NCBI RefSeq assembly: GCF_020177055.1
Contig: NZ_JAIQXT010000002.1
Location: 558,001 to 622,000, forward strand
Reading direction: 5' to 3'
Source of the DNA: Sphingomonas sp. R647
GTDB taxonomy: Bacteria; Pseudomonadota; Alphaproteobacteria; Sphingomonadales; Sphingomonadaceae
DNA: 64,000 bases
The notes under the pieces were generated by a model, which saw only the letters and a list, made by a program, of their open reading frames with translations, was not told the DNA's origin and did not search any database. Every line of letters starts with the position of its first letter. The stretch's first letter is position 1. Below, piece by piece: positions 30,455 through 34,470 of this stretch. The position numbers were made by a program, and so were the translations under genes.

Positions 30455-31519
30455 TCACGTCTCGTCGAGCGTCCCGCGCGTAACGCGATAGTGGTGGAGC
30501 GGGCCCGGCATGTTCACGAAGAGGTCTGGCTCGGTACCCGTCATCCACACCTGCCCCCGCCCGGCCAGCCGATCGAACAACGCCGCACGGCGCGAAGGAT
30601 CAAGATGGGCGGCGACCTCATCGAGCAGCAGGATCGGCGCGCGACCGATGCGCGCCGCGACCAATTCTGCATGGGCAAGGACGATGGCGAGCAGCAGCGC
30701 CTTTTGCTCGCCGGTCGAGCAGAGATGGGCAGGCTGTCGTTTGGACAGATGAATGACCGCCAGGTCCTGACGATGCGGCCCGACCAATGTGCGCCCCGCA
30801 GCTGCATCACGCGATCGGCCCGAGCGCAGGCGCGCCGCGAGGTCGCGGGCGTCGTCGCCCTCGATTGCCAGGCCCGCGCGTGCGAATGGGCCTTCCGGCT
30901 GTCCGGCAAGGGCTTCGGCAAGCTGGGCCACGGTGTCGCGGCGCGCGGTGTCGATCGCTGCGCCATGCTCGGCCATGCGCGCTTCAAGCGCGGTCAGCCA
31001 ATCGGGATCGGCGGGTTCGTCCGCGCCGAGCAGACGGTTGCGCTCGCGCATCGCGGCTTCGTAGCGCGCGCTGTGATGCGCGTGGCCGGGGGCAAGCGCG
31101 AGAGCCAGTCGGTCGAGGAAACGCCGCCGCTCGCTTGCCGGTTCGGCGAACAGGCGGTCCATCGCAGGTGTGAGCCACAGCACCGTCAACCATTCGCCGA
31201 GCGAGGTTGCAGCGGCAGTGGCGCCATTGACCCGCACGATTCGACGTTCAGGCGCTGTGGCCTGCGTGCCGGTGCCGATCTCGACCTCAGCGTCAAGTTG
31301 CGCCGCTACTCCGAACCCGCCGGCCCCGCCCTGCCGCGCCACTTCGGTCAGCGGTGCGCGGCGCAGCCCGCGGCCAGGGGCGAGCAGTGACACCGCCTCC
31401 AGCACATTGGTCTTCCCCGCGCCATTGTCCCCCGCCAGCACGACGAAGCCCGGCCCGGGGGTCAGGATCGTATCGCGATGATTGCGGAAGTCGGTCAGGA
31501 CGAGGCGGGTGAGGGCCAT
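30455..31519 (-). CDS. recF: DNA replication and repair protein RecF
   Basis: 354 residues, an SMC-like ATPase that with RecO and RecR loads RecA at gaps. Walker [10 protein letters not shown] near the N-terminus, signature-like [12 protein letters not shown], and Walker [15 protein letters not shown]. Normal length. In many bacteria recF directly follows dnaN; here about 1.85 kb with three genes separate them. Confidence 0.95.
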
Positions 31520-31572: not shown

Positions 31573-32322
31573 CTAGATGCCGACGAGGCCCTTGTCGCGC
31601 AATTCGGCCTGTGCCGCGCGGTACAGCGCCGGGTCGCCGATATTCAGCCGCGCACGAACGGCATCGAGCGGTTCGGCGAGCAACAGTTCATAATCCTCGC
31701 CCGACAGCCAGCGCGCGACCTTGCCGTGGCGATAGCCTTCGCGCACCGCCTTGGCGAAGCTGCGCGATCCGGTCACGCGCAGGCTCTTGAGCGCGGCGCC
31801 AAGCGCGATGAACGCCCAGCCCAGGCCGCCGGTCTGCGCGTAGGAGAAAGCGACGAGGCACGCTTCACCCAGCGGCTCGTCGGCCTGATAGCCGGTAATG
31901 ACGTGCCAGATGTCGTGGACGTCGCGCTCACGCCGGCCATACCATGCGTGCGGATGCTCGATCCCGCGCTCGACATCGGCATCGGCATAGCTGACATCGG
32001 CCAGCCCCTGCGCCGAATAGCCGGTGCGGTCGAGGAAGGCGCGATAGGCCGCACCGACGCTGCCCGCAGGCAGCGAATCGAGCCAAGCGCGGTCGGAGAA
32101 TTTTTCGGCGAGTTCGGTGCGGCGGTAGGCGATCCGCCCGCCTTCGGGGGTGGTGAGCAGCCTGCGGTAGTTGCGGGCGAGCGTGTCGCCGTTCAGCGCG
32201 CGCATGATGCGGAACACCTGCACCGTATCATCGCCATTGGCGAGCAGGCGGCGCAGCGCGGCCAGCGCCGTCCCCCATTCGCGCCTGCGGGGTTTGCTCC
32301 AGTCGATTGCTTGCGTCGCCAT
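31573..32322 (-). CDS. Coq4-family protein, ubiquinone biosynthesis
   Basis: 249 residues. The Coq4 hallmark HDxxH with upstream Arg/Asp is present in RRERDVHDIWHVITGYQADEPLGE. Eukaryotic Coq4 organises the ubiquinone complex and has been linked to C1 decarboxylation-hydroxylation of the ring; bacterial homologues occur in Alphaproteobacteria. ATG 32322 lies 14 bp from the nearest of the operator-like palindromes shared with the divergent XRE regulator gene, so it may be repressed by that protein. No other ubi genes lie nearby. Confidence 0.85.
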   Translation of the reverse strand: MATQAIDWSKPRRREWGTALAALRRLLANGDDTVQVFRIMRALNGDTLARNYRRLLTTPEGGRIAYRRTELAEKFSDRAWLDSLPAGSVGAAYRAFLDRTGYSAQGLADVSYADADVERGIEHPHAWYGRRERDVHDIWHVITGYQADEPLGEACLVAFSYAQTGGLGWAFIALGAALKSLRVTGSRSFAKAVREGYRHGKVARWLSGEDYELLLAEPLDAVRARLNIGDPALYRAAQAELRDKGLVGI

Positions 32323-32335
32323 AGGCCGTCCTTAC

Positions 32336-32450
32336 TGACAGAGTTGTCAATAAGCCATTACCGGTCGCAGTGCAAGCATGACAAGAGCTCTTGACAAGGG
32401 CCTCGCCGCTATGACAAGAGCTCTTGTCATATGGACAAGACCTCTGGACA
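32336..32450. promoter_or_regulatory. Cluster of four operator-like palindromes
   Basis: Between divergent coq4-like and XRE genes: TGACA-GAGT-TGTCA (32336-32349), TGACAAGAGCTCTTGACA (32379-32396, one mismatch), the perfect 20-bp ATGACAAGAGCTCTTGTCAT (32411-32430), and a degenerate half-site pair TGGACAAGA...CTCTGGACA (32432-32450). The shared half-site is TGACAAGAG. The two best sites are centred exactly 33 bp apart, about three helical turns. A TTGACA at 32391-32396 overlaps the second site. Most likely binding sites for the adjacent XRE protein, giving autorepression. Confidence 0.8.
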
Positions 32451-32456
32451 GCATTT

Positions 32457-32669
32457 GTGAATAATCGGCTCAAGATCCTGCGTGCCGAGACGGACTTGAG
32501 TCAGGGCGACCTCGCCCGGCTGCTCGGCGTCTCGCGTCAGACGATCAATGCGGTCGAGACCGACAAATATGACCCCAGCCTGCCGCTGGCGTTGCGGATG
32601 GCGAAAATCTTTGGAGTGGCAGTCGATGAAATTTTCCTCGATGACTGGATCGCACCCGAACGTGACTGA
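32457..32669 (+). CDS. XRE-family HTH regulator (YozG-like)
   Basis: 70 residues, almost entirely a Cro/CI-type helix-turn-helix: RLKILRAETDLSQGDLARLL, GVSRQTINAVETDKYDPSLP, LALRMAKIFGVAVDEIF. Proteins of this short class usually sit next to a small membrane protein gene and repress their own operon. GTG 32457 is chosen because it gives the family start (NNRLKILRAE) seven bases after the last palindrome; the frame open to TTG 32424 would run through the operator. Its 3' end overlaps the six-TM gene. Confidence 0.9.
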   Translation: MNNRLKILRAETDLSQGDLARLLGVSRQTINAVETDKYDPSLPLALRMAKIFGVAVDEIFLDDWIAPERD

Positions 32670-33318
32670 ATTCACGCGCGCGCAACGCTGGCGGCGGCAT
32701 GCCGTCGAAGCGCTGATCGGCGGCATTATCGGTGCTGGATTTGGTTTCAGTGTCGCCATGTTTGTCGACAAGACCGGGTTCGAGCGCTGGACGATTGCCG
32801 AGCTCGCGTCGCTCGGCATCGGCTTCATGCTGTTGTTCATGGGCGGTTTCGTACTGGTGATGAGCGCGTCGGAGCAGCGCTGGCGCCGACTTGTGGCGTT
32901 CCGCCAGCCGGGCAGCGAACCGCCGGACCGCGACTCGATGTTGGCAATCCGCCGTCAGGGCGTGATCATCGCGCTGTCCGGCCCGATCCTTGCCGCCCCG
33001 CCGATCCTGGCGCATCTCGGCCTGGGCGCTGATGCACGCGCGATCAGCGCGGCGGCAGTGCTCGCGGCGCTAGCGGGGCAGACCTGGCTGAACTGGCGGC
33101 TCTATCGCACGAGCGATGAGCTGATGCGGCAAGTGTCGCTGCTGGCTGGCGCGGTGTGTTTCTGGGGTGCGCAACTCGCGCTGTTCATCTGGGCGACGCT
33201 GGCGAAGCTGGGCTTGGTCGCCGATGTCGACAGCTGGACGCTGCTAACGCTGGTGATGGCACTGTATCTGGTTGTATCGACCTGGATCGGCTTTCGGCGC
33301 GGGCTGGGGCAGCTCTGA
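32626..33318 (+). CDS. Six-TM membrane protein coupled to the XRE regulator
   Basis: About 230 residues with six hydrophobic helices, for example LIGGIIGAGFGFSVAMF, ASLGIGFMLLFMGGFVLVM and LLTLVMALYLVVSTWIGF. No catalytic motif seen. ATG 32626 has GGAG eight bases upstream and overlaps the regulator by 44 bp. ATG 32641 and GTG 32662 are alternatives, and the last gives a tidier 8-bp overlap. The pairing of a tiny XRE repressor with a membrane partner recurs in many bacteria, but the job of the membrane protein is unknown. Confidence 0.75.
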   Translation: MKFSSMTGSHPNVTEFTRAQRWRRHAVEALIGGIIGAGFGFSVAMFVDKTGFERWTIAELASLGIGFMLLFMGGFVLVMSASEQRWRRLVAFRQPGSEPPDRDSMLAIRRQGVIIALSGPILAAPPILAHLGLGADARAISAAAVLAALAGQTWLNWRLYRTSDELMRQVSLLAGAVCFWGAQLALFIWATLAKLGLVADVDSWTLLTLVMALYLVVSTWIGFRRGLGQL

Positions 33319-33366: not shown

Positions 33367-34470
33367 TCAGACGCGCATCGGCATCAGCACGTAGAGCGCA
33401 GGCGACTTGTCATTCTCACGAATCAGCGTCGGCGCAGCGGCGTCTGCGAGGTGGACTTCGACCAGGTCACTTTCGATCTGGCCGAGAATGTCCATCAGAT
33501 AGCGCGAGTTAAACCCGATCTCGAACGGCTGCGCGGCATATTCGCCGGGAACGTCCTCAGCCGCGGTGCCGTTGTCGGGGCTGGTCACCGAAAGGGTGAT
33601 CCGGTCGCGGTCGAGCGCCATCTTCACCGCGCGGGTCTTTTCCGTCGCGATGGTCGAGACGCGATCGACGCCCTGCATGAAGCTCTTGGGGTCGATCTTC
33701 AGGATCTTGTCGTTCCCGGTCGGGATGACGCGGCTGTAATCGGGGAAGGTGCCGTCGATCAGCTTCGAGGTCAGGATCGCGGCGCCCAGGTCGAAACGAA
33801 TCTTCGATCCCGACAGCGACACGCCGACCGATCCGTCGACCTCGTCGAGCAGCTTGCGCAGCTCGGCCACGCACTTACGCGGGACGATGACGTCGGGCAT
33901 CGCTTCGGCGCCTTCCGGACGCGGCACGGTGACACGGGCGAGGCGGTGGCCGTCGGTCGCTGCAGCCTTCAGCATGTCGTCGGCGACGTGCAGGAAGATG
34001 CCGTTGAGATAATAGCGCGTCTCTTCGGTCGAGATTGCGAATCGGGTCTTGTCGATGATCTGCTTGAGCGTTTCGGCGGGCAGCTCGAACACGGTGGGCA
34101 GTTCGCCCTCCGCAATCACCGGGAAATCGTCGCGCGGCAGCGTGCCGAGTTCGAATTTCGCGCGGCCGGCATTGATCTTGATCTTGCCGTCGGCCGCGGT
34201 CAGCTCGACCTGCGACCCTTCGGGCAGCTTGCGGGCGATGTCGAACAGCGTGTGCGCGGGCACGGTGATCGCGCCTGCCTGATCCACCGCTGCCGGGACG
34301 GTTTCGTCGATCTGCAGGTCGAGATCGGTTGCCATCAGGCGGAGCGATCCGTCCAGCGATGCCTCGATCAGCACGTTGGACAAGATGGGGATGGTATTGC
34401 GCCGCTCGACCACCGACTGGACGTGGCTGAGGCCCCGAAGGAGCGTGGCGCGTTCGATCGTCGCTTTCAT
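33367..34470 (-). CDS. dnaN: DNA polymerase III sliding clamp (beta)
   Basis: 367 residues. Homodimeric ring that tethers polymerase to DNA. The N-terminus MKATIERATLLRGLSHVQSV, the central RFAISTEETRYYLNGIFLH and the C-terminal ALYVLMPMRV match the clamp fold and length. No dnaA gene precedes it: the upstream neighbour is an outer-membrane protein gene. So this dnaN is not in the classical dnaA-dnaN pair, and whether oriC is close cannot be told from this window. Confidence 0.96.
   Translation of the reverse strand: MKATIERATLLRGLSHVQSVVERRNTIPILSNVLIEASLDGSLRLMATDLDLQIDETVPAAVDQAGAITVPAHTLFDIARKLPEGSQVELTAADGKIKINAGRAKFELGTLPRDDFPVIAEGELPTVFELPAETLKQIIDKTRFAISTEETRYYLNGIFLHVADDMLKAAATDGHRLARVTVPRPEGAEAMPDVIVPRKCVAELRKLLDEVDGSVGVSLSGSKIRFDLGAAILTSKLIDGTFPDYSRVIPTGNDKILKIDPKSFMQGVDRVSTIATEKTRAVKMALDRDRITLSVTSPDNGTAAEDVPGEYAAQPFEIGFNSRYLMDILGQIESDLVEVHLADAAAPTLIRENDKSPALYVLMPMRV

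Follow-up and report, generated by a model that had tools for sequence, protein, structure and literature searches.

S1–S3, three palindromes upstream of a small XRE gene in Sphingomonas sp. R647, are probably tandem operators at which a CylR2-like XRE protein represses the operon that it forms with a six-TM protein, the latter likely being the signal input, and a fourth palindrome, S4, is taken to be a separate operator of the divergent coq4 gene, possibly bound by a TetR-family protein. The window, i.e. the whole 64,000-nucleotide stretch that was analyzed, contains the following features at this locus.

31573..32322, minus strand: coq4, Coq4 family (Pfam Coq4, 9e-19), ubiquinone biosynthesis, divergent from the XRE gene.
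32331..32354, no strand: CTTACTGACAGAGTTGTCAATAAG, containing S4 (TGACAGAGTTGTCA, 32336-32349), a coq4-linked palindrome and possible TetR-family operator.
32379..32396, no strand: S1, TGACAAGAGCTCTTGACA, a putative XRE operator (PWM 32.4 bits).
32411..32430, no strand: S2, ATGACAAGAGCTCTTGTCAT, a perfect 20-bp palindrome and strong putative XRE operator (PWM 31.6 bits).
32433..32450, no strand: S3, GGACAAGACCTCTGGACA, a degenerate third putative XRE operator (PWM 14.4 bits).
32457..32669, plus strand: XRE regulator, CylR2-like, 70 aa, GTG start, with a conserved SRQT(I/V)NAVETDKYDPSLPL region.
32626..33318, plus strand: membrane protein with six TM segments, 230 aa when read from ATG 32626 (GTG 32662 is another possible start).

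The divergent intergenic region between coq4 and the XRE gene measures 134 bp. With either start, the six-TM gene begins inside the XRE coding sequence, and the two genes overlap. The gene at 30455-31519 matched SMC_N in Pfam and is presumably recF-like, and that at 33367-34470 we take to be dnaN-like. The four inverted repeats that an earlier sequence-only reading had placed in this region were all recovered at their positions, including the perfect palindrome of S2; they are real and beyond chance. The 33-bp distance that it gave between the centers of S1 and S2 was also correct (32387.5 and 32420.5), and S3 follows S2 at 21 bp, a step shared with loci L033-L035, L037-L040 and others. S1, S2 and S3 have a common layout of 5-bp arm, 8-bp center and 5-bp arm, making up an 18-bp unit. 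The arms of S3 are identical to GGACA, the tip of the IS1595-family elements described below.

In a genome scan of the kind that the sequence-only reading had suggested, with up to three mismatches allowed, the 18-bp core of S2 was matched in the 4.15-Mb R647 genome at S1 and S2 alone, and the reversed-pattern control was matched nowhere. A second pattern, TGWMAAGANNTCTTKWCA with one mismatch allowed, was run on 23 genomes, namely 22 with an XRE ortholog and one (G091) in which no ortholog was found. Between one and four sites per genome were present in 22 of the 23, all of them immediately upstream of the XRE ortholog apart from a single stray site in G073; G091 had none, and reversed controls gave no match in any of the 23 genomes. 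No wider XRE regulon was seen with this pattern in the 22 genomes, and its confinement to one locus in each makes the motif look like a dedicated autoregulatory switch.

Absence of the palindromes at orthologous loci would have refuted the sequence-only reading, but they were present there. Best PWM scores lay between 26.1 and 33.6 bits in 40 of 40 selected orthologs, R647 included, the PWM having been trained on the same first-set loci that it scored; at the nine paralog loci the best scores were 1.2–14.7 bits, the loci having been divided into orthologs and paralogs only once the motifs had been inspected. Outside the upstream regions, 7 of 138,562 positions reached 8 bits or more. A second scan of named genomes, the closest relatives among them being Sphingomonas and some being shared with the first set, kept 80 loci of 185 relatives, and 77 of these scored at least 20 bits; the exceptions were L214 and L224, which had no site, and L187, in which the site was weak. 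The centers of the operators are altered to AACACTCT in L187 (upstream of 2501), L025 and L041, and in L187 both sites carry the altered center, possibly a co-ordinated change within one array.

For comparison of array architecture, 10 identical upstream regions were removed from 120 loci to leave 110 distinct ones. Three sites at 17-bp steps were found in 56 of these and two sites 31–34 bp apart in 44, with a further site 21 bp on in 17 of the 44; the other 10 had other arrays or none. The window falls into the 33 + 21 class. The proposal that the sites lie three turns apart on one face of the helix thus fits the window and the 44 two-site arrays, but not the 56 regions with 17-bp steps. The locus would encode a dedicated, single-target repressor with an operator array defined to the base pair, and it is conserved in many Sphingomonadaceae and Erythrobacteraceae. 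A search of one open library returned nothing relevant on XRE operators of this kind in sphingomonads. Several minor features of the arrays were also seen. GANTC, the target of CcrM, lies between the S1 and S2 positions in 20 of the 44 two-site arrays, many of them from close relatives (loci with it include L033, L035, L036, L037, L041 and L042), and is absent from the window. By eye, TGTAGGAAA recurs upstream of the arrays in L005, L009, L010, L020 and L023. A module with a 33-bp two-site array (L201) lies in a contig labelled Pseudoxanthomonas wuyuanensis, which suggests either transfer of the module or contamination.

The XRE protein itself matched HTH_3 in Pfam (2.6e-14) and aligned with CylR2 (1utx) over 58 aa at 4.3e-13, which places it among the CylR2-like Cro/CI helix-turn-helix regulators of about 66–70 aa. 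Regulators of this type bind as dimers at an inverted repeat in the target promoter; conserved palindromes are present at the XRE locus. By sequence, the closest solved structure was PDB 9k3w, annotated as "Transcriptional regulator, PbsX family" (2.6e-21), on whose biology the open literature searched held nothing relevant. The recognition region reads SRQT(I/V)NAVETDKYDPSLPL in 40 of 40 orthologs and SRQ(S/A)VNAIETG(K/R)YDPSLPLAF in nine of nine paralogs, so that operator class and recognition-region class are linked at the level of sequence; in the 80 scanned loci the signature is in part built in by the scan, which relied on NAVETDKY. The 5-8-5 frame with other centers was found in four of the nine paralog loci under a strict arm pattern (L024, L029, L030 and L031), and a site of the same frame with a different center was found at a further paralog locus, L123. 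In R647 itself, paralog locus L116 (2000-2290) has TGTCATGCTACCCTGACA, after which two more units like it come at 21-bp steps, joined by TAT/TAA linkers; these precede another XRE gene, after which a membrane-like ORF is found.

Placement of the promoter was considered from the arms of the first site. Its left arm is mostly TGTAA or TGACA across 100 arrays, and its right arm is TGAC[AT] in 98 of them, which with the preceding T gives TTGACA/T. By class, the right arm reads TGACT (54), TGACA (1) or GGACT (1) in three-site arrays and TGACA (42), TGACT (1) or TTACA (1) in two-site arrays. Such asymmetry would be expected if a −35 box lay within the operator, and the TTGACA of the S1 right arm (32391-32396) is likely the −35 box of the XRE operon. 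Seventeen bases beyond this arm comes the left arm of another site, the next or the last one, so that the −10 element should be covered too; in the window, the left arm of S2 would overlap the −10 region, in which no element was recognizable by eye. Several tandem dimer sites overlapping the promoter of a repressor are also found in the three-operator arrays of lambda-like phages; unlike these, the loci studied here have no divergent lytic gene, and their units either share 1 bp, where the step is 17 bp, or have starts 31–34 bp apart. The inner arms of the XRE sites presumably resemble the 434 operator, ACAA...TTGT.

In 114 of 120 loci the XRE gene is directly followed by an ORF with three or more TM segments, the gene order of AyrR/AyrA systems; by a similar criterion, a membrane ORF follows in one of nine paralog loci (L031). 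The ORF directly downstream looks soluble in L004 and L184 (one genome), the contig ends downstream of the XRE gene in L182, L199 and L244, and L227 has no such ORF for no clear reason. Identity of the partners to the window protein ranges from 16 to 44%, apart from three close relatives at 87–88%. D164, E165 and G226 never vary among 54 aligned partner proteins, and L166, W189 and R225 hardly do. An AlphaFold model of the window partner (pLDDT 90, pTM 0.81) has six long helices, with D164/E165 at the TM4–TM5 junction and R225/G226 after TM6. No Pfam match was obtained for the window protein; seven of the 54 relatives matched DUF3169 (PF11368) at E ≤ 0.1, with 2.1e-5 as the best value, but the best relative scored 24.7 bits against a cut-off of 31.6, and membership of DUF3169 is not assigned. 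By profile, DUF3169 was found in none of 59 family genomes, and no DUF3169-labelled partner was seen beside related XRE genes in five plasmid regions. No solved fold clearly resembling the membrane model was found: Foldseek gave no match at E ≤ 0.001 and VIA-align returned scattered helical bundles with a best Z of 8.6. An absent fold match does not show a new fold.

In S. aureus, AyrR is described as a small Cro-like repressor that binds upstream of its own gene, with ayrA immediately after ayrR; AyrA (DUF3169) has six TM segments and a conserved D-E motif in the TM4–TM5 loop and is required for induction, and its R233K substitution, predicted at the membrane–cytoplasm interface, leads to constitutive derepression of the operon (PMC5727409). 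The same authors suggest that AyrR and AyrA constitute a novel two-component system, and the operator of the Cro/CI repressor of the ayr operon had been deduced from resistance mutations that lie upstream of the repressor gene (PMC5013292). Compared by these described features, the R647 pair is alike in its small repressor, downstream membrane gene, six TM segments, D-E at TM4–TM5 and an Arg after TM6; it differs in that the window partner has no DUF3169 match, only weak ones being found in the seven relatives, and in that its motif is DEL rather than an exact D-E(a/g)E. The six-TM partner resembles AyrA of the Staphylococcus AyrR–AyrA membrane-stress switch, and by analogy it would relay a membrane signal to the repressor. 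A small XRE protein with a membrane partner is also known from CylR1/CylR2 of Enterococcus faecalis (PMC3709268; the system is also treated in PMC11343131). There, CylR1 is predicted to have three TM segments, and a divergent toxin operon is under the control of the two proteins. Unlike CylR1, the 230-aa window partner has six long helices and is encoded downstream, so that it falls outside the three-TM CylR1 family, and unlike the toxin operon of CylR1/CylR2, no biosynthetic operon was seen at the XRE loci read. Nothing relevant on XRE/YozG–DUF2975 pairs was found in one open library. The repressor locus looks ordinary, and its operator array is unusually well conserved. A small XRE regulator with a membrane partner is of a known kind, and its architecture and lineage here are new.

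From the analogy with AyrA/AyrR together with the anatomy of the locus, the following mechanism may be proposed. One XRE dimer would occupy each 18-bp unit, and dimers on S1–S3 would cover the likely −35 box and the expected −10/start region, keeping the XRE/six-TM operon repressed. The six-TM protein would sense a membrane condition, and its predicted cytoplasmic face (DE between TM4 and TM5, Arg after TM6) would then capture or disable the XRE protein, leading to derepression of the operon, as proposed for AyrA/AyrR. The six-TM protein is a candidate membrane sensor, with which direct signaling of the AyrR/AyrA type from a membrane protein to a tiny repressor, without phosphorylation, becomes testable outside Firmicutes.

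S4 had been counted with the other palindromes as one kind, a classification that was rejected: its arms are separated by 4 bp rather than 8 bp, and its conserved context is different (consensus T-N-ACA-N4-TGT-N-A within TAYT...AGTAA). An S4-type palindrome precedes coq4 in 30 of 30 loci, these being the loci retrieved from 155 coq4-bearing genomes in a set of 201, and only four of the 30 have strict XRE sites, a fifth (L057) having an IS-hybrid site. Linkage to coq4 that is complete and mostly without XRE sites points to S4 as a palindrome belonging to coq4. Elsewhere in the R647 genome S4 was matched once, with two mismatches, in the gap that separates a TetR gene from a divergent hydrolase gene (PF10118). 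The TetR ortholog is present in 110 of 121 genomes, and in 30 loci fetched an S4-type palindrome was found at the start of the TetR gene in 13 by each of two criteria and in 14 by their union; 16 had none by both criteria, with a weaker copy in one of these (L093). S4-type matches numbered 11 within the 396,462 bases that the 80 XRE loci make up, counting those linked to coq4, and 56 in 385,034 bases of the combined loci, coq4 and TetR loci included. S4 is taken here as a separate operator of coq4, possibly bound by TetR; we place moderate confidence in the TetR assignment, and a small TetR regulon that includes coq4 is possible. One open library held nothing relevant on a link between TetR and coq4. 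At L053:879-2421, the TetR gene is divergent from the PF10118 metal-hydrolase gene and shares its palindrome with coq4 (window 32331-32354).

Control of coq4 by the XRE protein as well, through S4 or through S1–S3 in the shared intergenic region, would agree with the divergent, adjacent position of coq4 in the window, with its occurrence, at 12 of 18 further loci of the XRE ortholog in the genus, inside the 3.2 kb retrieved, and with the TGACA/TGTCA arms of S4, which are those of XRE-type sites. It is nonetheless unlikely and was rejected as the main reading, since S4 has its own spacer and consensus and its linkage is to coq4 rather than to XRE sites; in addition, coq4 is found at none of 29 other loci of the family search, and the second S4 match lies at a TetR gene. 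Of the unit made up of XRE, six-TM and coq4 genes in the sequence-only reading, the XRE gene, the palindromes and the membrane gene do travel together, but joint control of coq4 was not supported. That a regulator other than the adjacent XRE protein occupies S1–S3 is conceivable in view of the several XRE paralogs per genome and of the indirect assignment of binding; we regard it as very improbable, because the motif follows this XRE ortholog and its type of recognition region, with one stray site elsewhere in 22 genomes, and because paralog loci carry different operator centers.

Activation of the operon from S1–S3, or a switch with occupancy like that of phage CI/Cro, would suit tandem sites at fixed spacing, which permit graded occupancy. 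S1–S3 are not confined to the upstream side but overlap the putative −35 box and the sequence that follows it, and both AyrR and CylR2 are described as repressors (PMC5727409, PMC3709268), so that we consider this quite unlikely and favor repression. Finally, the palindromes might owe their persistence mainly to IS1595-family elements, as landing sites or scars. Such elements occupy these sites in several genomes, and their tip is matched by the arms of S3. We give this explanation hardly any credit: the tip sequence occurs in only 3 of the 80 named loci, as against the 77 with strong sites, and R647 has neither such a transposase nor the tip.

The elements in question were seen in G298, in which an IS1595-family element splits S1 and has AGAGCTCT at both ends, and in G347, in which one splits S2. 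Pfam matches of the G298 element to DDE_Tnp_IS1595 (5e-25) and Zn_ribbon_IS1595 (2.1e-9) place it in the family. Transposase and tip scans of the family and genus genomes, requiring a stop-free transposase match (314–322 aligned columns), gave 11 GGACA-tip elements, as well as a lone tip without transposase in G222. The elements are located as follows.

L114:949-3892; L115:2101-3974; L119; L120; L123; and L268-L273: GGACA-tip elements in 5-8-5 palindromes.

All were inserted in the 8-bp centers of operator-like palindromes, and identical 8-bp duplications flank nine of the ten elements read at both ends, those of G358 differing at two positions; one end was found for the G033 element. The outer arms are TGACA, TGTCA, TGTAA, AGTCA or CGTCA, with TGGAA on one side in G226 and G219. 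Ten of the 11 adjoin a CylR2-like XRE gene, either ortholog or paralog (the exception is G006), a count that is partly non-independent because G298, G347 and G033 were first found via XRE loci; of the eight elements found via the IS scans, seven adjoin an XRE gene. No XRE match was found at any of 34 loci of IS1595 relatives outside the GGACA-tip subgroup, at least two pairs of these control loci (G136, G111) each marking opposite ends of a single element. Inverted ends, 8-bp duplications and DDE plus zinc-ribbon domains are shared with IS1595/ISXO2-like elements; the GGACA-tipped subgroup differs from other IS1595 elements in sitting in XRE operator centers.

Because the tips TGTCC/GGACA resemble the TGWCA arm that they displace, each end of the element would rebuild a hybrid operator. 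The chances seem to us about even that this subgroup targets operators of CylR2-like XRE/membrane switches across their 8-bp centers, its tips rebuilding hybrid operators, in which case an element may settle without destroying the switch of its host and with its transposase beside host control. If upheld, this would be a transposon that selects regulatory operators as targets and has ends that imitate them. All 36 transposase relatives found on plasmids were below 60% identity, and one open library gave nothing relevant on a preference of IS1595 for operators or palindromes. The copy in G313 (L272) has three tips, at 723, 1912 and 3975, rather than two; two of them agree in orientation and in their 8-bp flank, as though a second element or partial copy were adjoining. 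A further IS1595 relative, at L122:1452-3332, has GGTAA/GGAGA tips and lies in another palindrome, CCTCC-TCTAAAGA-GGAGG, and palindrome targeting may therefore be wider in the IS1595 family.
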